Assembly (NCBI RefSeq): GCF_026965535.1
Contig: NZ_CP114039.1
Coordinates: 7,626,001-7,690,000, forward strand
Reading direction: 5' to 3'
Length of the DNA: 64,000 bases
Origin: Corallococcus sp. NCRR
Lineage (GTDB): Bacteria > Myxococcota > Myxococcia > Myxococcales > Myxococcaceae
Of the stretch, positions 8,372 through 22,785 are shown piece by piece. The position numbers and the translations under genes were made by a program. The notes under the pieces are model-generated. The model saw nothing but the letters and a program-made list of their open reading frames with translations, made no database searches and was not told the origin of the DNA. Numbering within the stretch: position 1 is the stretch's first letter; the number at the start of each line of letters is the position of its first letter.

Positions 8372-9835
8372 CTAGGACCCAGGCTGATACAGGGGATGAG
8401 AGCGGGCGTGTTTTCTCAGGACGGGGCGCTCCACCTTGCTCATGGCGTTCCGGGGCAATGTTTCAAGTGCAACAAATCGGGCGGGCACCTTGAAGCGCGC
8501 GAGCGACTGGCTGCACCAGGCGTCCAGGTCTTCGGGGAGGGCGTGGCCGGAGCGGAGGACGACGAAGGCCACGGGGAGTTCGCCCCAGTGGGCGTCCGGC
8601 ACGCCGACGACGGCGGACTCGAGGATGGCCGGGTGGTTGGCGAGGACGGCTTCGATTTCGGCCGGGTAGAGGTTCTCCCCTCCCCGCACGATGAGGTCCG
8701 TGCGGCGCGACAGGAGCGTGAGGCGCCCCTTCGCGTCCAGGACGCCCACGTCGCGCGTGCGCAGCCAGCCGTCATGGAGGGCGTCACGCGTGGCCTCGCG
8801 CTGACGCCAGTAGCGGGCCATGAGCGTGGGGCCACGGACCTCCACGTCCCCTTCCTGGCCTTCACCGAGCGGCGCACCGTCCGTCCCGACGATGCGGACC
8901 TCCAGTCCAGGCAGGGGTGGACCCGCGGTGCGGCCATCGGCTTCACCGGGGCGTTCGGTGGTGACCTGGGAGCAGGCCTCGGTGAGGCCGTAGGTCTGCA
9001 GGGCCAGGAGTCCCGCGGCCCGTGCCCTCGTGAGTAGGGCCGTGGGGACGGGGCCTCCGCCGATGAGCGCGCATTGGAACGTCGCGGGCAGCCGGCGGTC
9101 CTGCCGCGCGTCCAGCACCCGCTCCAGCGTGGTGGCGACGAAGCTGGCGTGGGACGCGCCCTCCGTGTCGATGGCGCGGTTGACGGCGTCCGCGTCGAAG
9201 CGCTCGTGCAGGAGGAGGCAGCCGCCTTCGTAGGCGGTGCGCGTGAGCATGGCCAGGCCACCGACATGGAAGAGCGGCAGCGTGCCCAGCCAGCGCGGCG
9301 CGGGGTGCGCGCCCAGGTTCGCGGCGGAGGCGCGGCATGAGGCGCGGAAGGCCCCTTCCGTGAGGACGGCGCCCTTGGGCCTTCCCGTCGTCCCGCTGGT
9401 GAAGAGGATGACCCGGGCCGTGTCCGCGTCCCAGGCGCGCTCGGGCACGGGGGCGGCTGTCACGCCGTCGGGGAAGGACTCCAAGGCCTCTGCGTCCGGG
9501 AGCCGGTCGTGCAGGGCCCCGAGTGCCAACATGAGCCGGGGCTCGACGTCCTCCAGCAGGGGCTTCAGCTCCGTGGGCGTGAGCCGGGCGTTGAGCGGCG
9601 CGAAGAGCGCGCCCAGACGACCGAGTGCCCAGAAGAGGAAGGTCACCGCCGGGTGGCTCGTGGACAGCAGCGCCACGCGGTCACCCTGCCCGATTCCTCG
9701 CGCGTCCAGGGCTTGCGTCCAGCGCGTCACCTCTTCGTCCAGCGCGCGGAAGGTCCAGGTCCGTCCCGCGAAGCGCAGCGCCTCCGCGTGGGGATGCAGC
9801 CGCGCGCCTTCGCGGATGGGGCAGTCGTAGATCAT
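8372..9835 (-). CDS. menE: o-Succinylbenzoate-CoA ligase
   Basis: Acyl-adenylate-forming ligase of 487 residues, the usual MenE size. It activates o-succinylbenzoate to its CoA thioester with ATP. The AMP-binding P-loop is FTSGTTGRPKGAVLTE (about residues 148-163). QTYGLTEACSQ is the A5-type motif, DGWLRTRDVG the A7-type motif, and the C-terminal catalytic lysine region ends NAMSKVERPVLRK. Assignment to MenE rather than a general acyl-CoA ligase rests on size and on its place as last gene of the men operon, 30 bp after menC. Confidence 0.92.
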   Translation of the reverse strand: MIYDCPIREGARLHPHAEALRFAGRTWTFRALDEEVTRWTQALDARGIGQGDRVALLSTSHPAVTFLFWALGRLGALFAPLNARLTPTELKPLLEDVEPRLMLALGALHDRLPDAEALESFPDGVTAAPVPERAWDADTARVILFTSGTTGRPKGAVLTEGAFRASCRASAANLGAHPAPRWLGTLPLFHVGGLAMLTRTAYEGGCLLLHERFDADAVNRAIDTEGASHASFVATTLERVLDARQDRRLPATFQCALIGGGPVPTALLTRARAAGLLALQTYGLTEACSQVTTERPGEADGRTAGPPLPGLEVRIVGTDGAPLGEGQEGDVEVRGPTLMARYWRQREATRDALHDGWLRTRDVGVLDAKGRLTLLSRRTDLIVRGGENLYPAEIEAVLANHPAILESAVVGVPDAHWGELPVAFVVLRSGHALPEDLDAWCSQSLARFKVPARFVALETLPRNAMSKVERPVLRKHARSHPLYQPGS

Positions 9836-9865: not shown

Positions 9866-11020
9866 TCAGTGTTCCCGGTTGAAGTCCGGGTTCAGTCCGA
9901 GCCCGGGCAGGTCGCGCAGCCGCACGAGTCCCCCCCGGGGTTGATACGGATGATCTCGCGGCTCGTCAGCGAAGAGCCGTCCCACGGCGAGGCCGGAGGC
10001 CAGCTCTCCCGACGGCAGCGCGGAGGCCAGATGCGCGGCGCCCGCGCGGGCCACCACGCCGTCGATGGAGCTGGTGACGTACGCGTGCATGCCCATTCGG
10101 GCCGCTCGCAGCGCCACCACCATGGAGGGCAGCAGCCCTCCGAGCACCATCGGCTTGATCACCACCGCGCCCACCGCGGGCCCGCCGCCCAGGTCCATCG
10201 TGAGGAGCGTGCGCACCGCGGCGGGCGTGGCGAGCGTCTCGTCCGCGGCGATGATGCACGGGGCGCGGCGCTGCACCCGCCACAGCGCCTGCAGGTCCTC
10301 CGGCGGCGTGGGCTGCTCCACCAATTCCAGGTCGTACCAGCCCAGCCGATCCAGGGCGCGGTTGGCTTCGGGCTCCGTCCAGCCGCCGTTCGCGTCCAGC
10401 CGCAGGCGCACGCGCGGCCCCACCGCGTCGCGCACGGCCCGGACCCGGGCTTCGTCCTCGTCCAGCGAGCGGCCCGCGACCTTCACCTTCAGCGTCTGAT
10501 ACCCCTCCTCCACCGCCGCACGCGCTTCCCGGGCCAGGGCTTCCGGGTCCTCCGCGCTCAGCAGCGCGTTCACCAGGACCTCCTGCCGCGCCTCCTCCGC
10601 GAGCAGCCAGCACAGGGGCACGCCCTTGCGCTGGGCCACCAGATCCAACAGCGCCAGCTCCAGGCCATGCTGCGCGGCGGGGACAGGCTCCTCCGGGTCG
10701 ATGCCGCGGATCCGCGCGCCGCGCTGGCGCAGCTCCTCGCTGGCGGACGGGACGAGCGTGGCTTCGACGCCCTCGATGCTGTCCTCCAGCGTCTGCCCCT
10801 TGAGGGCGCTCAGCCACCCGCGCAGCACCGTGTGCGTCAGGGCCAGGGACTCCGTGCCGAACTCGGGCAGCGGCATGGCTTCACCCTGCCCTACGTGGCC
10901 CTCCTCGTCCCGCAGCCGCACGAGGAACCCGTCGCGCGTGGAGTAGGACCCCCTCGCCGTCTTCAGGGGGTTGGCCAGCGTGAGGTGCAGCGGAGTGAGG
11001 GTCGCCTCGATGATGCGCAT
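9866..11020 (-). CDS. menC: o-Succinylbenzoate synthase
   Basis: Enolase-superfamily dehydratase of 384 residues converting SHCHC to o-succinylbenzoate. The Lys pair is LKVKVAG. The metal ligands are RLDANGGW (Asp), ELVEQPTPPEDL (Glu) and AADETLAT (Asp-Glu). The second Lys is in VIKPMVLGGL. The start ATG 11020 has AAGGGG upstream and lies 9 nt after the menA stop. Some members of this subgroup also racemise N-acylamino acids, but the men context favours MenC. Confidence 0.93.
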   Translation of the reverse strand: MRIIEATLTPLHLTLANPLKTARGSYSTRDGFLVRLRDEEGHVGQGEAMPLPEFGTESLALTHTVLRGWLSALKGQTLEDSIEGVEATLVPSASEELRQRGARIRGIDPEEPVPAAQHGLELALLDLVAQRKGVPLCWLLAEEARQEVLVNALLSAEDPEALAREARAAVEEGYQTLKVKVAGRSLDEDEARVRAVRDAVGPRVRLRLDANGGWTEPEANRALDRLGWYDLELVEQPTPPEDLQALWRVQRRAPCIIAADETLATPAAVRTLLTMDLGGGPAVGAVVIKPMVLGGLLPSMVVALRAARMGMHAYVTSSIDGVVARAGAAHLASALPSGELASGLAVGRLFADEPRDHPYQPRGGLVRLRDLPGLGLNPDFNREH

Positions 11021-11029
11021 GACGCCCCT

Positions 11030-11950
11030 TCAGCGCAGGTACAGCCCGGCCGCGAACAGCAGCCCGAACACCATCTGCAGCTTCGCCGTCCCGCCCAGCG
11101 CGGGGTTGAGCGCCGCGCCCTCGGCCTTCAGCATCAGCTTCAGCGGCGGCGCCACCAGCGGCAGGCTCAAGAGCGGCAGGAAGACCCAGGCGCTCGCGTA
11201 GCCCCTGGCGAACAGCACGAACGGCGTGACATAGGAGGCCACCAGCAGCAGCACGTACTCCGCGCGGCCGAAGCCCTGGCCGAAGCGCACCGCCATCGTT
11301 CGCTTGCCGGCCTTCACGTCCGTGCTCGCGTCGCGCTGGTTGTTCACCACGATGAGGCACGTGCCGATGGCGCCCACCGGCACCGACGCCCACCAGGCCG
11401 CCGGGCTCACGACGCCGGCCTGCACGTAGTACGTGCCCGTCACCGCGACGATGCCGAAGAAGATGAGCACGAACAGGTCGCCCAGGCCCAGGTAGGCCAG
11501 CGGGAACGGGCCCCCCGTGTACGCATAGCCGCACAAGAGCGAGGCCACGCCGATGGCCACGATGGGCCAGCCGCCCACCGCCACCAGGTACAGCCCCACC
11601 AGCGTCGCCAGCGCGAAGCACCCGAGGCCGCCCAGGAGCACCGTGCCCGGCGCGATGAGCCCGCTCTGCGTCACGCGCTTGGGCCCCAGGCGCTCCTCGG
11701 TGTCCGCGCCCTTCTTGTAGTCATAGAAGTCGTTGATGAAGTTGGTGCCGATCTGGATCAGCACCGCGCCCACGAGCGCCGCGAGCGCGGGCAACAGGCG
11801 CCCCACCCCGTTGCCGTACGCGAGCGCCGTGCCCACCAGCACCGGCACCGCGCCCGCCGTCAGCGTCTTCGGACGCACGGCCATCAGCCACGTCTTCAGC
11901 GTGGGCCGGGGAGGAGCCGCATCAGGAGGAGTGCTCACCAGGGTCGTCAC
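11030..11950 (-). CDS. menA: 1,4-Dihydroxy-2-naphthoate polyprenyltransferase
   Basis: UbiA-family membrane prenyltransferase, 306 residues, with eight to nine hydrophobic segments. The first Asp-rich motif is [14 protein letters not shown]; the second is [16 protein letters not shown]. It attaches the isoprenoid chain to DHNA in the inner membrane. The GTG start at 11950 overlaps the menH stop by 4 nt (GTGA), which fixes the start and implies translational coupling. The N-terminus is Pro/Ala rich for about 12 residues before the first helix. Confidence 0.94.
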
Positions 11951-12798
11951 GAGTGGGTCGCCTCTCGCGCCAGGATGGCGTGTTCGAACTGCGGCGCTTC
12001 GTACCAGGGCGTCTGGAGGAACGAGAGCACTTCGCGCACGTACGCCTCCGGCGCCTCCAGGTGCGGGGCGTGGGTGACCCCGGCGAAGGCGTGGCGCCAC
12101 ACCACCGGCAGCTCCGCCGCCATGCGCCTGGCCAGGGCCGTGAACTTGAGGTCCTGCTCACCGGTGAGCAGCAGCGTGGGCAGCCGCTGTCGGTGCAGCG
12201 CGGGCCAGTAGTCGGGCTGCACGCCCAGTCCCAGGGTCTCCAGCGCTCCGGCCAGTCCCTGCGCCGTGCACGCCTTGCGGCGCTCACGCAGCGCGGCCTG
12301 CTCCGGCTCCGGCAGGCGGCGCAGTCCGTCGAAGAGGGGCAGCGCCTCCCAGCGCTCCACGAAGGCGTCCACGCCCTTCGCGCGGATGAAGTCCACGAGC
12401 TTCGCGTCGGCTTCGCGCCGCTCGGAGCGCTCCTGGCGGCGGTGCAGCCCGGGCGAGCCGCTCTCCATGATCAGCCGGCCGAAGCACTCCGGCGCGCGCA
12501 CCGCGGCGCCCAGCGCCACCCGCGCGCCCTGCGAATAGCCGAGCAGATCCACGTGGCCGCCCAGCTCGCGGGCCAGGCGGACCACCGCGTCCACCGTCTC
12601 CAGGAAGCCGTCGCGCCCTGTCTTCTCCGGCAGCGGCGTGCGGCCGTGGCCGGGCAGGTCCACCGCCACCACGCGCACGGAGCGGCCGAGCAGCGGACGC
12701 AGGTGCTCGAACGAAGCGCCGCTGCCGGTGAAGCCGTGCAGCGCCAGGAGCGTATGGGGGCCTTCACCCCAGATGTCATAAGCGAGCGTCACGCCCAT
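11947..12798 (-). CDS. menH: SHCHC synthase (alpha/beta hydrolase)
   Basis: 283-residue alpha/beta-hydrolase that eliminates pyruvate from SEPHCHC to give SHCHC. HGFTGSG near residue 21 is the oxyanion region, [11 protein letters not shown] holds the nucleophile Ser, and [12 protein letters not shown] near the C-terminus holds the catalytic His. The Asp is probably in TGEQDLKF. It overlaps the menD stop by 10 nt and is followed by menA with a GTGA overlap, so its role follows from both motif and operon position. Confidence 0.92.
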
Positions 12799-14558
12799 GG
12801 TCCTTCTCCCAGTGCGGCGGCCATCCGCGTGAAGAGGTGCCGGTGCGCATCCACGTTGGTGGCCCGGTCCACTACGACCTCCACCAGATGGAGGCCTCCC
12901 TCCAGCCCGGTGCGCACCGCCGCGCGCAGGGCCGTGGGCGTCGTGGGCCGCTCGAAGCGAGCCCCCGCGAGCGCCGCCGCGTGCGACAGGTCCACGCCGT
13001 GCGGCGTGCCGAAGAGGGCCTCGAACTCGTCCGGCTTCGCCACCTGCGCCAGCGGCAGGAAGGAGAAGATGCCGCCGCCGTCGTTGTTCACCACCACGAC
13101 CGTCAGGGGCACGCGCGCCCGCGCCGCCGAGACGAGCCCACCCACGTCGTGCAGGAGCGCCAGATCACCGGAGAGGAGCACCGCGGGCCGCCCCGCCGCC
13201 GCGGCCATGCCCGCCGCGCTGGACACGATGCCGTCGATGCCGTTGGCCCCTCGATTCGCCAGCACGCGCAGCGGGACACCGCCCCCGTGCGCGAACGCGT
13301 CCACCGCGCGGATGGGCATGCTGCTGGAGACAAAGAAGAGCGCGTTCGCCGGCAGCGCCGCCACCACCTCGCGCGCCAGCCGGGGCTCGGTCAGTCCATC
13401 GGACTGTTCAGCGAGCGCCGTCTCCAGCGCGTTGCGCGCCACCCGCTCCGCGTTGACGAAGTCCTGCGCCCAGCGGCCGGGGCCTCGCGACAGCGCTTGC
13501 GTCAGCGCACGGCACGCGAGCACCGCGTTGCCTTCCACCACGCGCGTGGCCCGGTGCGCCGGGTCGTACAGCGCGCCCTCATCGCTGAAGACGGTGATGT
13601 CCGCGCCGGAGGCGTCCAGCCACTGCTGCGGCGACTTGGGCGTCAGGCCTCCGCCGAAGCGCAGCACCACCTCCGGCGTGTGGCTCCGCGCGAACGGCTC
13701 GTGGCGCAGGAGCGCGTCGTAGAGCGACACGGTCAGCGGGCCGCCTCCGTAGCGCGCCTGCGACGTGGCCTCCGCGAGCACCGGGTAGCCCGTGGCCAGG
13801 CTCAGCGCGGTGATGGCCTCCGCGAAGCCGTCGTCCTCGTCGCGGGGACCGCACACGATGACGCCGCGCTCGGTGGTGGCGATGCGCGCGCGCACCTCAT
13901 CCAACGCCGCCGCGTCCGGGGCCCGCGACGACTGCGAGATGCGGGTGAGGGGCGCGTCCGTCCGCCCTTCCCTCGCGAGCGCCGTCAGCTTCTCCGCGCC
14001 GAAGTCCTGCGCGATGGGCGCCAGCGGCTCGCGGAACGGCACGTTGAGCTGCACGGCGCCCCGGGGCGCGCGGCACGCGGTGCTCACCGCGCGGGCGGCC
14101 GTGGCGCGCAGGTGCGCGATGGCGGCGCTGCTCGCCTCGGGCATGCCCACGTCCGCGAACATCCTCGCGAAGTCGCCGTAGAAGCGCGCCTGGGGCACCG
14201 TCTGCGGCGCGCCCCAGCCCTGCAGCTCCAGCGGCCGGTCCGCCGTGAGGATGATCAACGGCACCTGGGCCATGGCCGCCTCGACGACGGCCGGGAAGAA
14301 GTGCGCGCCCGCGGAGCCGCTCGTCGCGACCAGCACCACCGGCTGACGCGACTGCTTCGCCATGCCCAGCGCGAAGAAGCCCGCGCTCCGCTCGTCGATG
14401 ACGGACCAGACTCGCAGGCCCGGCGTGTGCGCGCAGGCGAGCGCCAGCGCGGACGAGCGCGAACCCGGACACACCACCGCGTGCCGCACGCCGCCACGCA
14501 CCAGTTCTTCCAGCAGCGCACGCGACCACAGCACGTTGAGGTTGGCGTCCAGGGACAT
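12789..14558 (-). CDS. menD: SEPHCHC synthase (ThDP-dependent)
   Basis: 589 residues, a normal MenD length. It joins isochorismate and 2-oxoglutarate using thiamine diphosphate. The catalytic Glu lies in DERSAGFFALGMAK. TSGSAGAHFFPAVVEA and TADRPLELQGWG are MenD signatures. The ThDP/Mg motif runs from SGDLALLHDVGG to VVVNNDGGGIFSFLP. Start ATG 14558 overlaps the menF stop as ATGA. An upstream in-frame start at 14615 would lie inside menF and is rejected. Confidence 0.96.
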   Translation of the reverse strand: MSLDANLNVLWSRALLEELVRGGVRHAVVCPGSRSSALALACAHTPGLRVWSVIDERSAGFFALGMAKQSRQPVVLVATSGSAGAHFFPAVVEAAMAQVPLIILTADRPLELQGWGAPQTVPQARFYGDFARMFADVGMPEASSAAIAHLRATAARAVSTACRAPRGAVQLNVPFREPLAPIAQDFGAEKLTALAREGRTDAPLTRISQSSRAPDAAALDEVRARIATTERGVIVCGPRDEDDGFAEAITALSLATGYPVLAEATSQARYGGGPLTVSLYDALLRHEPFARSHTPEVVLRFGGGLTPKSPQQWLDASGADITVFSDEGALYDPAHRATRVVEGNAVLACRALTQALSRGPGRWAQDFVNAERVARNALETALAEQSDGLTEPRLAREVVAALPANALFFVSSSMPIRAVDAFAHGGGVPLRVLANRGANGIDGIVSSAAGMAAAAGRPAVLLSGDLALLHDVGGLVSAARARVPLTVVVVNNDGGGIFSFLPLAQVAKPDEFEALFGTPHGVDLSHAAALAGARFERPTTPTALRAAVRTGLEGGLHLVEVVVDRATNVDAHRHLFTRMAAALGEGPWA

Positions 14559-15853
14559 CACCGGCCCCCCAGCGCGCGCAACATCGCCAGACTCTTCATC
14601 TCCGTCTCCCGCCACTCGGACTCCGCGCTGGAGCCCGCGACGATGCCCGCGCCCACGAAGAGCCGGGCCTTCGCCCCGCGCACCAGCGCCGAGCGCAACG
14701 CCACCACCAGGTGCGCACGCCCGGGGCCCACCCAGCCCACCGGCCCCGCGTACCAGCCCCTGTCCAGCGACTCGTGCTCCACCAGGAACGACAGCGCGCG
14801 CTCGCGCGGCGTGCCGCCCACCGCCGGCGTGGGGTGCAGCGCCGTGACGACCTTCGCGGTGTCCACGCCGTCCGCCAGCTCCGCGCGGATGCCCGTGCGC
14901 AGGTGCACCACGTTCTTCAGCGCGAGCACGGACGGCTGCGCGTCCGCGGACACGCTCGCCGCCACCGGCGTCAGCGCCTGGAGGATGTAGCGCACCACCG
15001 CGTCATGCTCGCGCCGGTCCTTGTCGCTCGCGTCCAGCGCCTCCGCGCCGCCCGGCGCCGCGGACCCCGCGAGCGCTTCGGTCTCCAGCCTGCGCCCGTC
15101 CACCCGGCACAGCGTCTCCGGCGTCGCGCCCAGGAAGCCCGTGCCGTCCGGCGCGCGGAAGAGGAACGTCGCGCATCGCGGGTTCTGCTCGCGAAGCCGC
15201 GCCAGCACGTCCACCACGTCGAAGGGCTCCGGCCCCTCCGCCTCCAGCGCCCGCGCCAGCACCACCTTGTTCAACTGGCCGGCGCCAATGGCCTCCACCG
15301 CGCGGTCCACCAGCGCCTCGAAGTCCGGCCGGGACGAAGCCGTGCGCAGCGCGACCGGCGCGCCCACCGGATGGCGGTAGGACGAAGGGAAGGACGCTCG
15401 CACGCGCTCCAGCCGCGAGCGCACCACGTCCTCCGCGCCCTGCCCCTCCGGAGCGAAGACCGCGACCGCCAGCGCGCTGCCCTCGCGCCACACCAGCACC
15501 TCCGGCAGCGTCCAGCGCGCCAGCCCATGCGAACGCCACGCGCCATCCACCGGCTGCGTGGGGCTGAAGCGCATGCCGCCGAACCAGGGGCCCGGCATCT
15601 GGGGGGACACCGCGTCCAGCCACCGCACGCTGTCGTGACCGAGCGCGCCCAGCACCGCGGGCAACTCACCGGGCGCATGCGCTTCGAGCACGCCCGCCTC
15701 GCCCCACCCCGCCACCGCCTCGCGCGCCACCGGCCGCTCCCAGTACACGGAAGGAACGCCGAGGCTGCCCGCTCCGGCCAGCGGATCCACGCCGGGCAGC
15801 GGCATCATCCCGGCGACCCATCGCGGATCCTCAGCGGGACTGAGCGGCGTCAT
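14558..15853 (-). CDS. menF: Isochorismate synthase
   Basis: 431-residue chorismate-utilising enzyme, first gene of the men operon. AGQLNKVVLARALE contains the general-base Lys. FLGATPETLCRVDG, HPTPAVGGTPRERAL and GWYAGPVGWVG are the conserved active-site blocks of isochorismate synthases, with the Mg-binding Glu in SEWRETEMKSL. Start ATG 15853 has CAGGAG 9 nt upstream. It draws chorismate off the product of the divergent aro operon, which makes the shared upstream region the natural control point. Confidence 0.95.
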   Translation of the reverse strand: MTPLSPAEDPRWVAGMMPLPGVDPLAGAGSLGVPSVYWERPVAREAVAGWGEAGVLEAHAPGELPAVLGALGHDSVRWLDAVSPQMPGPWFGGMRFSPTQPVDGAWRSHGLARWTLPEVLVWREGSALAVAVFAPEGQGAEDVVRSRLERVRASFPSSYRHPVGAPVALRTASSRPDFEALVDRAVEAIGAGQLNKVVLARALEAEGPEPFDVVDVLARLREQNPRCATFLFRAPDGTGFLGATPETLCRVDGRRLETEALAGSAAPGGAEALDASDKDRREHDAVVRYILQALTPVAASVSADAQPSVLALKNVVHLRTGIRAELADGVDTAKVVTALHPTPAVGGTPRERALSFLVEHESLDRGWYAGPVGWVGPGRAHLVVALRSALVRGAKARLFVGAGIVAGSSAESEWRETEMKSLAMLRALGGR

Positions 15854-15900: not shown

Positions 15901-15928
15901 TTGTCTTCTAAGCGATCTCGGCTATACA
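15901..15928 (+). promoter_or_regulatory. Promoter of the aro operon
   Basis: TTGTCT (15901-15906), 16 nt, TATACA (15923-15928); each hexamer matches the consensus at 4 of 6 positions. Transcription would start near 15935, just before the inverted repeat and about 65 nt before the aroF GTG. Confidence 0.5.
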
Positions 15929-15936
15929 TGCACCAA

Positions 15937-15960
15937 GGAGTTCAAAACCGCTTGAACTCC
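15937..15960. promoter_or_regulatory. Perfect 9-bp inverted repeat between the men and aro operons
   Basis: GGAGTTCAA - AACCGC - TTGAACTCC, a perfect inverted repeat with a 6-nt centre. It lies at the predicted +1 of the aro promoter and about 85 nt upstream of menF. A further half-site, TTCAAG, follows at 15973-15978. It could be a repressor operator or the first hairpin of the aro transcript. Confidence 0.55.
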
Positions 15961-16000
15961 ATGGAATCTGAATTCAAGTAACTCCAGCGAGGGAGCCGCC

Positions 16001-16897
16001 GTGGGAGGCCAGCAACCAGACGACCCAGCCGGGCGGCGTGACCCGGGTGCACACCGCGTCCTTCGCGCAGCGCGTCCAGCCGGCACCCGCGTGCAGGTGG
16101 GGGCCGTGGAGGTGGGCGGGCCCGGCTTCGTGGTGATGGCGGGGCCGTGCGCGGTGGAGGGCGCCGAGCAGTTGGAACTGGCGGCCCGCGCGGTGGCGCA
16201 GGCGGGCGCGCACATGCTGCGTGGAGGCGTGTTCAAGCCGCGCACCAGTCCGTATGCGTTCCAGGGCATGGGGGAGCCGGGGCTGAAGCTGTTGGTGGAC
16301 GCCGGGCGGCGCCACGGCCTACCCATCATCAGCGAGGTGATGGAGACCGAGCAGCTGCCCCTGATGGCGCAGCACTCGGACATCCTCCAGGTGGGCGCGC
16401 GGAACATGCAGAACTTCGGGCTCCTGCGCGCGCTGGGGAAGCTGCGCAAGCCGGTGCTGCTCAAGCGCGGGCTGTCCGCCACGGTGCAGGAGTGGCTCAA
16501 CGCCGCCGAGTACATCCTGGCGGGCGGCAACGAGCAGGTGATGCTCTGCGAGCGCGGCATCCGCACCTTCGAGACCGCGATGCGCAACACGCTGGACCTG
16601 GCCGCGGTGGCGTGGGCGAAGGAGCGCACGCACCTGCCGGTCATCGTGGATCCCTCGCATGCGACGGGCATTCCTTCCCTTATCGCGCCCATGTCGCTGG
16701 CGGCGGCGGCCTGCGGTGCGGATGGATTGTTGATTGAAGTCCACCCCCGGCCGGAGCAGGCGCTGTGCGACGGTCAGCAGGCGATGTCGCCCGGGGATTT
16801 CGCTACGTTGATGCAACGGCTGCCGGGCGTGCTCGCCGCGGTGGACCGTCACCTTTGGACGCCGGCGGGGCCGGCACAGATCGCGGGGGCGCGATGA
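16001..16897 (+). CDS. aroF: 3-Deoxy-7-phosphoheptulonate (DAHP) synthase, class I-beta
   Basis: 298-residue DAHP synthase condensing PEP and erythrose-4-phosphate, the first step of the shikimate pathway. MAGPCAVE and [20 protein letters not shown] are hallmark KDO8P/DAHP synthase I-beta motifs. [11 protein letters not shown] and [11 protein letters not shown] complete the barrel active site. The GTG start at 16001 has GAGGGAG 7 nt upstream. Only about 40 residues precede the barrel, so it lacks both the ferredoxin-like and chorismate-mutase regulatory domains. Feedback control may therefore be transcriptional, or be exerted through the upstream repeat. It overlaps menG by ATGA. Confidence 0.94.
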
Positions 16898-17583
16898 GCA
16901 CCGAAGTCCGTCAGATGTTCTCCTCCATCGCCACGCGCTACGACGTGACGAACGAAGTCCTCTCGCTCGGCATCCACCGCCTGTGGCGGCGCGCGGCGGT
17001 GAAGCTCAGCGGCGCGAAGGAAGGCAGCCACGTGCTGGACTGCGCGACCGGCACGGGCGACCTGGCGCTGGCGTTCAAGCGCAAGGTGGGCTCCACGGGC
17101 CGCGTGGTGGGCACGGACTTCTGCCCGGAGATGCTGGAGAGCGCGCCGGCCAAGGCGGCCAAGGCGGGGCTGGAGGTGGAGTTCCAGGTGCAGGACGCCA
17201 TGGCGCTCACCCTGCCGGACAACACGTTCGACGTGGCGTCCATCTCCTTCGGCATCCGCAACGTGGATGATCCGGTGAAGTGCCTCCAGGAGATGGCGCG
17301 CGTGGTGCGCCCCGGAGGCCGCGTGGTGGTGCTGGAGTTCGGCCAGCCCACGGGCCCGTACGGCGCGCTGTTCCGCTTCTACAGCAAGACGGTGATGCCG
17401 GCGATTGGCGGCCTGCTCACGGGCAACCGCGCGGCGTACCAGTACCTGCCCCGCACCGCCGCGGCCTTCCCCGCCGGCGACCGCTTCCTCTCCCTGATGG
17501 ACCAGGCCGGCGCCTACTCCGAGCGCGCCGCCCACCCCCTGCTGTTTGGAACCGCCTACGTCTATGTCGGCACCGTCCGTTGA
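16894..17583 (+). CDS. menG: Demethylmenaquinone methyltransferase
   Basis: 229-residue UbiE/MenG methyltransferase, the last step of menaquinone synthesis. Its N-terminus [22 protein letters not shown] is typical (usual form FdxIAxrYDxxNxxlSlG). [14 protein letters not shown] is the SAM motif I, FGIRNVDD the family signature, and VVVLEFGQP the post-motif strand. It is separated from the other men genes and embedded between aroF and aroK on the opposite strand, so methylation capacity is tied to chorismate production. Overlaps: ATGA with aroF, about 20 nt with aroK. Whether it also methylates ubiquinone precursors cannot be seen; nothing here suggests ubiquinone synthesis. Confidence 0.94.
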
Positions 17584-18163
17584 GGCCCGACGCCTCCTCG
17601 TCCAGCAACTCGTCGCGTCGGTAGACCCCAGACTCCAGCAGGCGCTCCAGGGGGCCCTTTCGTCCCCGGGGCCCTGCCCCCGCCCCATGGGCGCGCAGAC
17701 CGTCGTCATCGCGGGCCACCGCGCGGCCGGCAAGACGCGCCTGTTGCCGCTCGTCTCGAAGCTGCTCGGGCGCACCGGGCTGGACCTGGACGCGGAGCTG
17801 GAGCGCCGGCATGGGCGCCCGCTCCGCACCTGGGTGGCTGAATCCCCCACCACCTTCCGCGCCGCCGAGCGCGAGACGCTGGGCCTCCTGCCCCAGGGCA
17901 GCGTGGTGGCGGTGGGCGGCGGCTTCCTGTCGCATCACCCGGAAGCGCTCGCGGGGCACTTCACGCTCGTCGTCCCCGTCACCTTCGACACGTATCGCGA
18001 GCGGCTGATGGCGGACACCACGCGCCCCCGGCTGCGCACGGATGTGTCGCTGGAGGAGGAGCTCCACTCGCTGTTCCATGAACGCGAGGCGCTGCACGCC
18101 CGCGTCCCCACCATCTCCCTGGCGGACTTCCTCCGGGGCTGCCTTGCCCAGGAGCCTGACTGA
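17564..18163 (+). CDS. aroK: Shikimate kinase with N-terminal extension
   Basis: 199 residues. The P-loop GHRAAGKT sits at residues 51-58, after a ~42-residue extension absent from E. coli AroK (where the P-loop is near residue 10). LDLDAELERRHGRPL carries the shikimate-binding Asp. RAAERETLGLL and AVGGGF supply the Arg and the Gly-rich loop. ATG 17564 lies within the end of menG (20-nt overlap). An in-frame ATG at 17687 (MGAQTVVIAG) would give a standard-length enzyme, so the true start may be internal. Its end shares an A with aroDE (TGATG). Confidence 0.9.
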   Translation: MSAPSVEARRLLVQQLVASVDPRLQQALQGALSSPGPCPRPMGAQTVVIAGHRAAGKTRLLPLVSKLLGRTGLDLDAELERRHGRPLRTWVAESPTTFRAAERETLGLLPQGSVVAVGGGFLSHHPEALAGHFTLVVPVTFDTYRERLMADTTRPRLRTDVSLEEELHSLFHEREALHARVPTISLADFLRGCLAQEPD

Positions 18164-19410
18164 TGGCCACCCGGCGCATCATCACCCTGCCCCCCACGCT
18201 CACCGGCGCGGACGCCGTCACCTTCGCGCGCGACGGCCTCCAGCGGGGCGCGGACGTCATCGAGGTGCGGACCGACCTGCATGCTCCCGGTGATATCGAT
18301 CCGGACGCGCTCGCCCGCGTGATGCCGCTGCTCGTCTCCGAGCGGGGCAAGCCGCTGCCCGCGCCGTGGATCCAGGCCGCGTGGCGCGTGGACCGCGACG
18401 TGGAGCGCGCGCAGGACATGGACGCGCCGCCAGGGAAGCTGCTCGCGTCACACCACGCGGAAGGTCCGCTGACGACGACGGAGGCGCTCCAGCGCTGGTC
18501 CCGCCCCATTCCGCCGGATGCGCTGGTGAAGCACGTGGAGCCCATGGACGGGCCCGCGCACCTGGAGGTGCTGCTCCAGACGCAGGCCGCATTGTCCCAG
18601 CGCTTTGGCGCCGAGCGCGTCACCGTGCTGGGCATGGGGCCGGTCGCCATCCCGGCGCGCGCGGTGCTCTCGCGCAGGAACGGCCTGGAGTACGTGGCCA
18701 TGGGTGGCCCGTGGACGGCGGCCCCGGGACAGCGCCTTCTGGACGACGTGGTGCGCGAGCACCGCAAGGCGAAGGATCCGCACGCGCCGCGCCTGGGCAT
18801 CCTGGGCACGGCCATTCCGCACTCGCGCTCGCCGCGCATCCACCGACAGCCGTTCGACCGCATCGACCTGGCCGAGGACGCGCCGGTGGAGGCGGTGGTG
18901 GACGCGCTCTTGCCGCACTACGCGGGCTTCGCCGTGACGAGCCCGTTCAAGATGCGGCTCGCGAAGCACACGGGCTCGTCGCTGGACGCCATCAACACGC
19001 TGGTGCGCCGGGGCTCGCGGTGGGAGTCCTTCAACACCGACACGGAAGGCGCGCGCGCGGTGCTGGAGCGCCTGGGCGCGAAGGACGTGTCGGTGCTGGG
19101 CGACGGCGGCTCCACGCAGGCCCTGCGGCTGGTGGCCGCTGAACATGGATTCGCCCTGCGGGTCGTGAAGCGCGCGGAGATACAAGCCCCGCTGTCCGGG
19201 GATTGGGTCTGGACATGGCCGGACCGCGTGGCCCCCCCCGAAAACCTGCGATTCCAGGGGGCACGCGTGGCGGTGATCGCATACGGTGCGCCCGGCCGGC
19301 GCGTCGCCGCGGAGATCGTTCGCCGCGGGGGCACCCCTCTCCTGCTAGGTGCGGCGTGGTTCGTCGCCCAGGCCCGGCGGCAGCGACAACTCTGGGAAAC
19401 GGCGACATGA
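18163..19410 (+). CDS. aroDE: Fused type I 3-dehydroquinate dehydratase / shikimate dehydrogenase
   Basis: One 415-residue chain performs two consecutive shikimate steps. Residues 1-205 form a type I dehydroquinase with E34 (IEVRTD), H97/H98 (LLASHHAEG), Schiff-base K123 (LVKHVEP) and a late APGQ. Residues 210-415 form an AroE unit: GILGTAIPHSRSPRIH, FAVTSPFK with catalytic K263, the AINTL loop, SFNTDTEG, then a nucleotide-binding loop LGDGGSTQA. Separate enzymes usually total about 520 residues, so this fusion is compact, and the AroE C-terminal half looks shortened. Coupled on both sides (TGATG with aroK, ATGA with aroC). The fusion is read straight from one uninterrupted frame. Confidence 0.92.
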   Translation: MATRRIITLPPTLTGADAVTFARDGLQRGADVIEVRTDLHAPGDIDPDALARVMPLLVSERGKPLPAPWIQAAWRVDRDVERAQDMDAPPGKLLASHHAEGPLTTTEALQRWSRPIPPDALVKHVEPMDGPAHLEVLLQTQAALSQRFGAERVTVLGMGPVAIPARAVLSRRNGLEYVAMGGPWTAAPGQRLLDDVVREHRKAKDPHAPRLGILGTAIPHSRSPRIHRQPFDRIDLAEDAPVEAVVDALLPHYAGFAVTSPFKMRLAKHTGSSLDAINTLVRRGSRWESFNTDTEGARAVLERLGAKDVSVLGDGGSTQALRLVAAEHGFALRVVKRAEIQAPLSGDWVWTWPDRVAPPENLRFQGARVAVIAYGAPGRRVAAEIVRRGGTPLLLGAAWFVAQARRQRQLWETAT

Positions 19411-20426
19411 ATACCTTTGGCACCCTCTTCCGGTTGACGACGTTCGGCGAAAGCCATGGCCCCGCGCTGGGCTCCGTCATCGACGGCTGCCCCGCGGGCG
19501 TTCCGCTCACGCGCGAGGTGATCCAGGCGGCCCTGGATCGCCGGCGTCCCGGGCAGTCCGCCCTGGTGACCCCGCGCAACGAGCCCGACACCGTGGAAAT
19601 CCTCTCCGGCGTCTTCCAGGACAAGACGCTGGGCACGCCCATCGCGGCCATCGTGCGCAACGCGAACCAGCGCTCGCAGGACTACAACCAGCTGGCCAGC
19701 GTGGACCGGCCGGGTCACGCGGACGCCGTGTGGCGCGAGCGCTACAAGCACCGCGACCACCGGGGCGGCGGCCGCACCAGCGGACGTGAGACGCTCTGCC
19801 GCGTCATCGGCGGCGCCATCGCGGAGGCGTACCTCGCGCGCGACCTGCCCTCCATCAGCACCGTGGCCTACGTCTCCCAGGTGGGCGAGCTGGTCGCGCC
19901 CGTTCCGGCGCCGGGCCTCACCCGCGCCATGGTGGACGCGCACCCCACCCGCTGCCCGGATGAAGCCGTCCGTGAAGAGATGGCCCGGCAGATCCTCGCC
20001 GCGAAGGAGGCTGGCGACAGCCTGGGCGGATCCATCGACGTGCGCGTGGAGGGCCTGCCCGTCGGCCTGGGCGAGCCCATCTTCGGCAAGCTGAAGGCGC
20101 TCATCGCGCAGGCGCTGGGCAGCATCGGCGCCGTCACCGGTGTCATGTGGGGTCCGCCGGATCTGCTCCAGCGCATCGGCCAGCCCGGCACGAAGTTCCA
20201 CTCCGTGAAGGACGCGTACGGCGGCATCCAGGGTGGGCTCGCCAACGGTGAGCCCATGCAGGTGCGCGCCTTCTTCAAGCCGCCCGCGACGCTGGCGGAT
20301 CACGCCAAGGGCGGCCGTCACGACCCGTGCATCATGCCCCGCGCCGTCCCGGTGCTGGAGGCCATGGTGTCGCTCGTCATCGCCGACCTCGTCCAGCAAC
20401 TCAACGCCCGCCCCCACTCCGCATGA
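19407..20426 (+). CDS. aroC: Chorismate synthase
   Basis: 339 residues, FMN-dependent enzyme that converts EPSP to chorismate. The N-terminal signature FGTLFRLTTFGESHGPALG, DRPGHADAVWRERYKHRDHRGGGRTSGRET and HAKGGRHDPCIMPRAVPVLE cover the flavin and substrate sites, including two conserved His. Overlaps aroDE and aroB by ATGA at each end. Confidence 0.97.
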   Translation: MNTFGTLFRLTTFGESHGPALGSVIDGCPAGVPLTREVIQAALDRRRPGQSALVTPRNEPDTVEILSGVFQDKTLGTPIAAIVRNANQRSQDYNQLASVDRPGHADAVWRERYKHRDHRGGGRTSGRETLCRVIGGAIAEAYLARDLPSISTVAYVSQVGELVAPVPAPGLTRAMVDAHPTRCPDEAVREEMARQILAAKEAGDSLGGSIDVRVEGLPVGLGEPIFGKLKALIAQALGSIGAVTGVMWGPPDLLQRIGQPGTKFHSVKDAYGGIQGGLANGEPMQVRAFFKPPATLADHAKGGRHDPCIMPRAVPVLEAMVSLVIADLVQQLNARPHSA

Positions 20427-21493
20427 GCCCGCTTCCTCCCGGTTCCTACCGCCCCCCCAACGACCGCTGGGGTTCCTTCACGAAGCTCGTCGCCAGGCTG
20501 CCCGAGGGCAGCGTCGCCGTGGTGGACCGCACCGTCGCGAAGTTCCACCCCACGCTCCTCCCCGCCATCGAGGCCCGCAAGCCCCGCGCCATCATCCAGC
20601 TGGTCGGCGGTGAGCGTGCCAAGAGCCTCATCTCGCTCCACAAGGTGCTCACGGGCGGCATCAACCTGCCGCGCTCCGGCACGCTCGTCGCCGTGGGCGG
20701 AGGCACCGTGGGCGACGTGGCCACCGTGGCCGCGCACCTGCTCAAGCGTGGCGTGCGGCTGTTGCAGGTGCCCACCACGCTGCTCGCGGCGGTGGACAGC
20801 AGCCTGGGCGGCAAGGGCGCGGTGGACCTCGTCGTGCGCGGCCGCGTGGTGAAGAACCCCGCGGGCGTCTTCCACTACGCGGACGAGACGTGGCTGTGCC
20901 CGGAGCTGTACGCCACGCTGTCCGACGCGCAGGTGCGCGAGGGCTCCATCGAGGCGTGGAAGATGGTCGCGTCGCTGGATGCGTCCCTCTTCAAGCGCTA
21001 CGTGCGCACGCCTCCGAAGCTGGAGAAGCTGGTGAAGGACGCGCGCGGCCTGAAGGAGGACGTCTGCGCGAAGGACCCGTACGAGCATCAGGGCCTGCGC
21101 CGCGTGCTCAACTTCGGCCACACCTTCGGACACGTGCTGGAGAGCCTGTCGCGCTTCAAGCTGTCTCACGGCGACGCGGTGGGCCTGGGCATCCTCTGGG
21201 CCCTGGACGTGGGCCGGCACCTGGGCATCACGCCGGAGCCCGTGGCGCATGACGTGGAGCGCGCGCTGGCCCGGGGCCCGGGGGTGCTCGGACGCGACCG
21301 CGCCGCGGAGATCGCCCAGCGCGCGCCGCTGAAGGACGTGGTCGCGCTGCTGGACGCCGACAAGAAGGCCGGCGCCAACGGCGAGCTGCGCATGGTGCTG
21401 CTCACCGCCGTGGGCACCGCCGAGGTCGTGGATGTGATGCCGAAGACGTGGCGGGCCCTGTGGCCCGCCTGGACCCGTGGAGCCCGCCCGTGA
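20423..21493 (+). CDS. aroB: 3-Dehydroquinate synthase
   Basis: 356 residues, NAD- and Zn-dependent carbacycle-forming enzyme. AVGGGTVGDVATVAA is the NAD-binding motif and QVPTTLLAAVDSSLGGKGAVDL the substrate loop. The zinc ligands are in REGSIEAWKM (Glu), LNFGHTFGHVLE (His) and KLSHGDAVGLG (His). Start ATG 20423 overlaps the aroC stop as ATGA. The nucleotide-binding N-terminus is slightly short compared with E. coli AroB. Confidence 0.95.
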   Translation: MSPLPPGSYRPPNDRWGSFTKLVARLPEGSVAVVDRTVAKFHPTLLPAIEARKPRAIIQLVGGERAKSLISLHKVLTGGINLPRSGTLVAVGGGTVGDVATVAAHLLKRGVRLLQVPTTLLAAVDSSLGGKGAVDLVVRGRVVKNPAGVFHYADETWLCPELYATLSDAQVREGSIEAWKMVASLDASLFKRYVRTPPKLEKLVKDARGLKEDVCAKDPYEHQGLRRVLNFGHTFGHVLESLSRFKLSHGDAVGLGILWALDVGRHLGITPEPVAHDVERALARGPGVLGRDRAAEIAQRAPLKDVVALLDADKKAGANGELRMVLLTAVGTAEVVDVMPKTWRALWPAWTRGARP

Positions 21494-22785
21494 GCCACGC
21501 CTCTCCGAACCGCCTCACCGTCGACCCGAGCGCCTTGAGCGCCTCACCGCTCACCCCGCCCGTGTCGAAGTCGGACGCCCAGCGAGCCCTGGTGTTGGGA
21601 CACCTCACGGGCGCCTGGCCGCTGCCGTCGGTGCAGGCGGAATCGGACGAGGACCTCCCCGCCGACGTGCGCGTGCTGCGCCGGGGCGTGGAGGCCCTGC
21701 GCCTTCCCGCGGGCCCCGTGCGCGACGTGGACTGCGCGGACGGAGGTGCTCCGTTCCGCATCCTCGTCACGCAGGCCGCGGTGACGCCCGGCGCGCGCGT
21801 GCGCTTCACCGGCACCCCCCGCCTGGGCGAGCGCCCGCACGGCCCGCTCTTCACGTCGCTGAAACAGGCCCTGGGCCCCGCGGGCCTCACGCTCACCGAG
21901 GGCACCCCGTGGCCGGTGGAGCTGCACGCGCCCCAGGACACGACGAAGGTGCCGCCGGTGTTCCGCGTGCCGGGCGCGCAGAGCAGCCAGTACGCCTCCA
22001 GCCTGCTGTTGGGCTGCGCCGAGCGCTTCCTCCGGGAGAAGCGCTCGTGGAGCGTGGAGATCGAAGGCACGCTCACCAGCGCCGGCTACATGGACCTCAC
22101 GGTGGCGTGGCTGCGCCGCTTCGGCTTCACCGTGGAACAGTCCGAAGGTCACTACTCCGTCACGGGGTATCAGGCGCCCGAATCCGTCCCATCACTGCCG
22201 GGCGACTGGTCGTCGCTGGGCTACCTGGTGCTCATCGCCTGGCGCACGGGCGGCACGGCGGAGCGCGCGGAGCCCCAGAGCGCCCACCCGGACCAGGCGA
22301 TCCTCCGGCTGGCCGCTGAAGTGGGCCTGAAGATGCTCCCGTCGGGCGCGCCCAACACCTGGCGCTTCGAGGGTGAGGCCACGGGCGAGCTGCGCGCGAC
22401 GGGCAAGGAGTGCCCGGACCTGCTGCCCACGCTGGCGGCGCTCGCGTGCGTGCTGCCCCGGCCCACCACGCTCAGCGACGTGGGCATCCTGCGGGTCAAG
22501 GAGAGCGACCGGCTGGAGGGCATCCGCACGTTGGTGTCCGCCTACGGCGGCACCACGGAGCTGTCGGCCGGAGCCGACAGTGAGACGCTCCGCATCGTCC
22601 CTCCGAAGGTGAAGCCCGCGCGCTTCGCCATGGACAGCCGGGGTGACCACCGCCTGGCGATGTCAGCGGCCACCCTGTGTGTGCTGTCCGGGGTGCCTCT
22701 GGATCTGACGGGGCCGGAGTGCGTGGAGAAGAGCTTCCCGGGCTTCTGGCGGCAGCTCGCGCGGGCCGGCGTCCGCTATTCCTGA
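21490..22785 (+). CDS. aroA: EPSP synthase (3-phosphoshikimate 1-carboxyvinyltransferase)
   Basis: 431 residues from GTG 21490, which overlaps the aroB stop (GTGA). PPVSKSDAQRALVLGHL corresponds to the S3P-binding KSxxxR motif, and DCADGGAPFRILVT replaces the usual LxNxGTxxR segment. VKESDRLEGI and DSRGDHRLAMSAAT are the C-terminal catalytic motifs. The PEP-loop sequence DGGAPFR differs from the E. coli NAGTAMR and from the usual class II sequence, so it is an unusual EPSP synthase. Last gene of the aro operon. Confidence 0.92.
   Translation: MSHASPNRLTVDPSALSASPLTPPVSKSDAQRALVLGHLTGAWPLPSVQAESDEDLPADVRVLRRGVEALRLPAGPVRDVDCADGGAPFRILVTQAAVTPGARVRFTGTPRLGERPHGPLFTSLKQALGPAGLTLTEGTPWPVELHAPQDTTKVPPVFRVPGAQSSQYASSLLLGCAERFLREKRSWSVEIEGTLTSAGYMDLTVAWLRRFGFTVEQSEGHYSVTGYQAPESVPSLPGDWSSLGYLVLIAWRTGGTAERAEPQSAHPDQAILRLAAEVGLKMLPSGAPNTWRFEGEATGELRATGKECPDLLPTLAALACVLPRPTTLSDVGILRVKESDRLEGIRTLVSAYGGTTELSAGADSETLRIVPPKVKPARFAMDSRGDHRLAMSAATLCVLSGVPLDLTGPECVEKSFPGFWRQLARAGVRYS

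Follow-up and report, generated by a model that had tools for sequence, protein, structure and literature searches.

What is the function of the palindrome that lies between the divergently transcribed menaquinone (men) and chorismate (aro) operons of Corallococcus sp. NCRR, and which regulator would use it? The first-pass annotation of the window (the whole stretch of 64,000 nucleotides that was analysed, whose positions are used below) proposed that a single regulator bound to a shared operator balances chorismate supply against its use in quinone synthesis. Comparison with related genomes indicates that the palindrome very probably serves as operator for a regulator that keeps the components of the respiratory quinone coordinated.

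The men/aro junction and its palindrome

The leftward men operon begins with menF coding for isochorismate synthase (14558-15853, minus strand; TIGR00543, 308.5 bits, cut-off 224.75), which is followed on the same strand by menD (12789-14615; TIGR00173, 459 bits, cut-off 244.2), menH (11947-12798; TIGR03695, 237.5 bits), menA coding for DHNA polyprenyltransferase (11030-12100; TIGR00751, 195 bits), menC (9866-11020; TIGR01927, 145.8 bits) and menE (8372-9835; TIGR01923, 357 bits), with the last four matches also above their cut-offs. The true start of menD may be further in, and that of menA probably is. On the plus strand the aro operon begins with aroF coding for DAHP synthase (16001-16897; PRK08673, 414 bits, above cut-off). 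The PRK08673 match starts only at model position 72, so aroF lacks the N-terminal part of this model, which is consistent with an earlier claim that the enzyme has no regulatory domain. The second gene is ubiE/menG coding for demethylmenaquinone methyltransferase (16894-17583; TIGR01934, 232.5 bits, above cut-off, with the start taken from the match), and the remaining aroK-like, aroDE/aroE, aroC, aroB and aroA genes occupy 17546-22785. Among these, the aroK-like gene (PF01202) and aroC match above cut-off, aroB and aroA match their TIGR models below cut-off, and the gene read as aroDE/aroE, which has no family match, was named by inspection. Since the aro operon contains menG/ubiE, it is partly a menaquinone operon even if the palindrome touches the aro side alone. 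The genome also has further DAHP-synthase-like genes (G000:C1:317203-318000 and 5602082-5602858, 55% and 40% identical to aroF), and thus the men-linked aroF may feed menaquinone preferentially.

The predicted operator occupies 15937-15960 (no strand assigned) and reads GGAGTTCAA-AACCGC-TTGAACTCC, with arms that are perfect over 9 bp, so the inverted repeat described by the first-pass annotation is present where it was claimed. Within the window only this one place matches the repeat at up to three mismatches, with none in 100 shuffles, and the same is true of the whole 9.79-Mb single-contig genome where the repeat occurs at this place alone. An additional TTCAAG half-site that had been noted at 15973-15978 did not hold up, as it is present in the window's genome only and absent from 11 aligned relatives of the same genus, seven of which have TTCCAG, TTCCCG or TTCTCG at this position and four of which have a deletion.

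The palindrome had also been placed at the predicted +1 of an aro promoter. A putative promoter, TTGTCT (15901-15906) and TATACA (15923-15928) separated by a 16-bp spacer (15901-15928, plus strand), is suggested by inspection of a conserved block and by its near-constant distance to the operator. Specifically, in an alignment of the region upstream of aroF from 12 genomes of the genus (that of the window included), compared with 15 others, hardly a letter changes within the genus from TTGTCT, via TATACAT, up to the palindrome, and the flanks are variable; this set comprises 27 of 30 loci, with L014-L016 left out because they end at the gene start. By inspection, the distance from the operator to the aro-side -10 is also nearly constant among the f1 promoters. 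With a predicted +1 near 15935, the conserved core of the palindrome, GTTCAAAACCGCTTGAAC at 15940-15957, would lie at about +6 to +23. The operator thus sits just after the predicted +1, close to where it had been put, but the putative promoter is a weak one recognized from its conservation, and a scan of the region for a strict sigma-70 consensus found none. The conserved TTGTCTTCTAAG block at 15901-15912 is longer than required for a -35 hexamer alone and may have a second role at the divergent men promoter. A leader peptide starting at an ATG after the palindrome was considered and rejected, as by inspection its reading frame is not conserved across the 12 promoters of the genus.

What is kept in relatives is a core, GTTCA-N8-TGAAC, that is shorter than the 9-bp arms, lies just downstream of the putative aroF promoter and is conserved well beyond the genus. 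Allowing one mismatch, this core or its variant TTTCA-N8-TGAAA is present in 56 of 60 men/aro promoters, these being the ones, out of 98 genomes, whose men or aroF region was fetched and readable; the four promoters lacking the site are those of G020, G058, G065 and G080. Left out of this count are G003 and G028 (contig ends) and G012 and G077 (no anchor). All four are draft assemblies in which a contig breaks off on the menF side of the junction or close to it. Three further genomes (G030, G045 and G052) were counted separately. The inner letters TTCA and TGAA are invariant in all 56 sites, which were preselected at no more than one mismatch to the core, and the three outer arm pairs are formed in 39, 36 and 28 of them. 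Alignment had been suggested as a check on whether both arms are conserved, and their core indeed is beyond the genus, with the outer arm letters pairing only in part in distant genera. Neither free variation of the arms nor conservation of pairing alone, the two patterns named as arguing against an operator, is observed.

A second site at a prenyl synthase-regulator operon

The exact 12-base palindrome was found in 48 of 98 genomes (including that of the window), in many of them twice, versus 5 of 98 for a reversed control pattern. In the loci that were read, the second copy lies mostly directly 5' of a polyprenyl synthetase gene (PPS) that is followed by a gene coding for a MarR/GbsR-like protein (REG). 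In the window's genome this second site, GTTCACGCGGTCTTGAAC, is located at C1:6706297, 0.94 Mb from the window site, where the polyprenyl diphosphate synthase matches PF00348 with 163 bits and the REG gene overlaps the PPS gene by 4 bases. No chain-length model reached its cut-off with this PPS, the product of which is presumably the menaquinone tail. Among relatives, 70 cases were examined and the core is present 5' of PPS with at most one mismatch in 64 of the 66 that were readable, the exceptions being G020 and G074; G003, G018, G024 and G040 were unreadable, and the f5 genomes were treated apart.

We also analysed named genomes, using the best 80 of 148 matches to an alignment of REG. These loci were searched by peptide patterns that include the REG helix, so the set favours one operator class. 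PPS adjoins REG in 79 of these best 80 loci, and among the best 80 the core is present with at most one mismatch in all 75 readable PPS upstream regions (exact in 70), whereas control windows from the same loci had 10 one-mismatch and no exact cores in 1500, and the same upstream regions read backwards had a one-mismatch core in 1 of 75. (One earlier tally scored 12 bases and has higher mismatch counts than the 10-base core.) Five loci that are unreadable or lack PPS (L209, L231, L242, L279 and L282) were left out of the 75; by inspection, REG itself is preceded by a one-mismatch core in L282. In these PPS sites the three outer arm pairs are formed in 52, 5 and 13 of 75. A third half-site, TGAAC, follows the core after 4 bp; it is degenerate in the window, with exact copies in 45 of 75 PPS sites and 16 of 56 men/aro sites. 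The named loci include Myxococcus xanthus, where the PPS-REG operon (L229) has an exact site, and extend to Lujinxingia (Bradymonadales), Candidatus Uabimicrobium amorphum (Planctomycetota) and a record labelled Planctomycetota (L284).

In several genomes the two loci are joined. REG and PPS are clustered with men genes in five relatives (L083, L139, L144, L151 and L153), and in two Planctomycetota records PPS and REG share one cluster with aroF and men genes. L286 has the order site-PPS-REG-aroF-menF-menD, and in L284 the site, which has one mismatch, separates REG from PPS-aroF-ubiE-menF-menD. Genome G050 has two PPS-REG operons (L093 and L094) with an exact operator upstream of each. The third gene after REG in locus L077 (L077:5950-6483) codes for an AIG2_2-family protein (PF13772, 64 bits), and by inspection AIG2_2 look-alikes adjoin PPS-REG in several genera.

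A search for further targets in the window's genome with a 14-base pattern at up to three mismatches returned 22 places, and the reversed control 18, which leaves only those with no or one mismatch as standing out. The exact 10-base core occurs at three places, two of which are the men/aro and PPS sites. The third, GTTCATCCTTGCCTGAAC at G000:C1:3196782-3196799 (L289), lies over the end of an open frame, with the next frame 2 bases further on, is common to the three same-genus genomes searched and is not in the list of G038. It may be a further target, and coding constraint is our guess for why it is kept. Exact 12-base palindromes away from men/aro and PPS number nine, on the order of the control matches (5 of 98 genomes). 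One of these (L089:2515-2532, in G037) lies about 120 bp upstream of a gene named by inspection as mraZ-like and is probably due to chance.

Co-variation of site, regulator and quinone genes

The two sites agree in type in all 53 genomes in which both could be classed, with 47 having G-type cores at both loci and six, all of family f7, having TTTCA-N8-TGAAA at both; the T class permits one mismatch and so takes in the f6 and f2 sites. Both regions were readable in 57 genomes, and the remaining four of these are missing one site or both. Two unlinked sites that change in step is the pattern expected from a trans-acting factor, although the restriction of the T/T genomes to one family means that the change may be a single evolutionary event. 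The recognition helix of REG also differs: at three positions (K75, V78 and R83 in M. xanthus) G-type proteins usually carry K, V and R, for which f7 has T or S at the first, A at the second, and A or S at the third. The correlation runs along family borders, with G076 of family f5 as an exception that combines a G-type PPS site with a T, L, A helix. Finally, the exact 12-base palindrome is present in none of the 12 relatives without a REG match versus 48 of 86 with one, in some of these at other places only.

The site is retained through loss of neighboring genes. In the reduced genomes of g21 (G035, G048 and G054) and in g12 (G026 and G044) it lies between menF and ubiE, with aroF not detected at that place. 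In g16, which comprises the three separately counted genomes, menF, aroF and ubiE were not found at that place and the core is kept with at most one mismatch in 3 of 3 between menD and aroK, where it faces aroK with a recognizable aro-type promoter (by inspection).

No MenD above cut-off was found in families f5 and f6, and the futalosine-pathway family PF02621 is present in 17 of 98 genomes, 15 of them f5 and two f6. REG lies within 3.5 kb of a PF02621 gene in all 13 f5 genomes with a REG match, as judged by comparing coordinates; of the two f6 genomes, it is 4.7 kb away in G062 and on a separate contig in G068. A related palindrome, TTCA-N8-TGAA, occurs at the PPS gene in 10 of 15 f5 genomes, shortly after TTGACC-N18-TATA; random windows contained this palindrome in 92 of 1500 cases (true sites included). 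Of the five f5 genomes without this palindrome two have no REG match, and three (G072, G087 and G096) have a REG homologue, which argues against a simple rule. In the two genomes with no REG match (G093 and G097; L314 and L316), the TTGACC-N18-TATA promoter of PPS is kept and the palindrome after it is absent, as if operator and regulator had been lost together.

The candidate regulator, its rivals and its likely role

REG is a protein of about 200 amino acids that matches MarR_2 (PF12802) with 39.3 bits (cut-off 27), and its closest relative among the best 80 of 148 named matches, from Corallococcus sp. AS-1-6, is 97% identical. Some of the weak REG matches may be paralogues. An AlphaFold model (pLDDT 81, pTM 0.66) predicts a MarR-superfamily fold with a winged helix and long dimerisation helices. 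Foldseek ranked 1ku9 (MJ223) first for this model (E 2.6e-8, TM 0.44/0.56) followed by 5jbr, 4nb5 and then MepR, with a better overlap on 4nb5 (TM about 0.58/0.75) than on 1ku9; MJ223 was also first in a PDB profile search (1.9e-20). MarR-superfamily dimers bind palindromes of about 16-20 bp, and the palindrome at the predicted operator is 18 bp.

Known regulators resemble REG in part. The choline regulators GbsR and CudC have an aromatic cage for choline or glycine betaine, and REG is not a member of the CudC equivalog (35 bits, cut-off 218). The GbsR/OpcR/OpuAR group of Bacillus shares with REG a winged-helix MarR-superfamily fold, a match to MJ223 and an inverted-repeat operator. REG differs from this group in being linked to quinone and prenyl genes rather than to choline or glycine betaine genes, and in a GTTCA-N8-TGAAC core rather than an A/T-rich repeat with a 4-bp spacer. 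GbsR was modelled on an MJ223 template, and the main text of that family paper contains no polyprenyl, menaquinone, isopren or Myxococc (PMC6207618). As described in the available part of another report, GbsR operators lie downstream of +1, like the window's operator relative to its predicted +1, and repression is said to be by roadblock (PMC7396694). Closer in theme is CrtR of Corynebacterium glutamicum, a MarR-type protein that, in the accessible text on it, adjoins crtE, a prenyl diphosphate synthase gene, represses the crtE operon as well as its own expression, and has its DNA binding interfered with by isoprenoid pyrophosphates (PMC5401885). REG, too, is linked to a prenyl diphosphate synthase gene (79 of the best 80 of 148 named matches); there is a site at its own operon, which it may autoregulate. 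CrtR differs, in the same text, in its divergent gene order, its carotenoid operon and its need for a TTAA motif, and no menaquinone or chorismate targets are named there (PMC5401885); we liken the two by description, not by homology. CrtR thus sets a precedent, in that a MarR-type protein represses the operon of a prenyl diphosphate synthase. MhqR shares the MarR fold and a quinone theme and, where it is introduced in PMC6798810, is a quinone-responsive repressor named as a regulator of quinone resistance, not synthesis. A more general regulator, SinR of Bacillus subtilis, affects menaquinone synthesis according to the accessible part of PMC8183045. Our literature search, which covered few subscription journals, found no transcription factor dedicated to menaquinone synthesis and no description of a regulator or operator of this kind, in line with the earlier statement that none with this site was known. 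REG would therefore be, on sequence grounds, a regulator of the MarR superfamily for which both operator and regulon are new.

Recurrence of the palindrome 5' of a PPS gene that travels with a MarR/GbsR-type regulator gene makes the men/aro palindrome very probably the operator of that regulator. The data do reveal a shared site and not its binder, so a different, unlinked transcription factor could bind both operators with REG as a passenger of the PPS operon, a reading that the genomes with REG but without a PPS palindrome and the deviating helix of G076 would fit. We consider this unlikely given the adjacency of PPS and REG as far as Planctomycetota with a site at every readable PPS among the best 80 of 148 loci, the confinement of the exact palindrome to relatives with a REG match, and the fact that in f5 it is REG, and not only PPS, that stays near menaquinone genes. 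More improbable still is that the repeat acts as an RNA hairpin in the aroF leader, be it an attenuator, a stabiliser or a protein-binding hairpin, rather than as a DNA operator. The window's leader does fold locally (-22.1 kcal/mol, z = -2.2; two other leaders have z = -1.8 and -1.5), and the outer pairs are often formed at men/aro sites. However, the letters of the core and not pairing alone are kept, the second and third outer pairs are rarely formed at PPS sites, and no terminator was found in the window's region. In addition, the f5, f6 and f7 PPS palindromes start some 1 to 8 bases past a -10-like hexamer (promoters by inspection), so that the 5' arm would often be only partly transcribed. 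A stem kept by compensatory changes with free sequence was not observed; in f7 the outermost core pair is changed on both sides from G-C to T-A, which a DNA palindrome explains as well. Chance or local sequence similarity without function has the shortness of the core in its favor and nothing else, and is negligible in view of the repeat's absence from shuffles, the core's excess over control windows, and conservation across families and at two unlinked loci.

A narrower version of the regulator reading, in which the aro-side promoter and PPS-REG are all that the site controls and the men operon is left out, is doubtful yet a good deal more plausible than these. It draws on the near-constant distance to the aro-side -10 in the f1 promoters and on the g16 site that faces aroK. 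Against it are the g12 and g21 genomes, in which no aroF was detected at that place and the site is kept between menF and ubiE, and the five relatives in which men genes and PPS-REG form one cluster.

Our preferred reading, to which we give a probability of roughly 80% based on sequence comparison, is that REG is an autoregulating and probably repressing regulator of menaquinone supply, with the men/aro palindrome as one of its two main operators. A REG dimer would probably bind GTTCA-N8-TGAAC at its own PPS-REG promoter, leading to autoregulation, and, in the menF-aroF intergenic region, immediately 3' of the putative aro-side promoter, where it would act mainly by roadblock or steric block. 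REG would thus repress PPS-REG and aroF-ubiE-aro. Control of the menF side is likely; here we infer, since the near-constant geometry is with the aro-side promoter. A pathway metabolite, our first guess being a prenyl diphosphate or a late quinone intermediate, would relieve or tighten repression, so that synthesis of the prenyl tail keeps pace with expression of the chorismate and menG genes and, probably, of the divergent men operon. The earlier proposal of one regulator with a shared operator is therefore strongly supported, as the site is kept, recurs at the unlinked PPS locus and agrees in type wherever both were classed. Its theme was too narrow, however, since the regulon also holds PPS and the candidate regulator, which makes menaquinone supply (ring precursors plus prenyl tail) the theme rather than chorismate balance only.

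More tentatively, and at somewhat less than even odds, REG may be a dedicated menaquinone regulator that is independent of the head-group route (Men or futalosine), is kept with PPS and a nearly constant operator from Myxococcota to Planctomycetota even where that route was lost or replaced, and senses a molecule shared by both routes, for example the quinone or a long prenyl diphosphate. The analysis supplies a concrete candidate menaquinone regulator together with its operator and main targets, and with M. xanthus as a ready genetic system the balance of quinone head and tail in the cell becomes testable.
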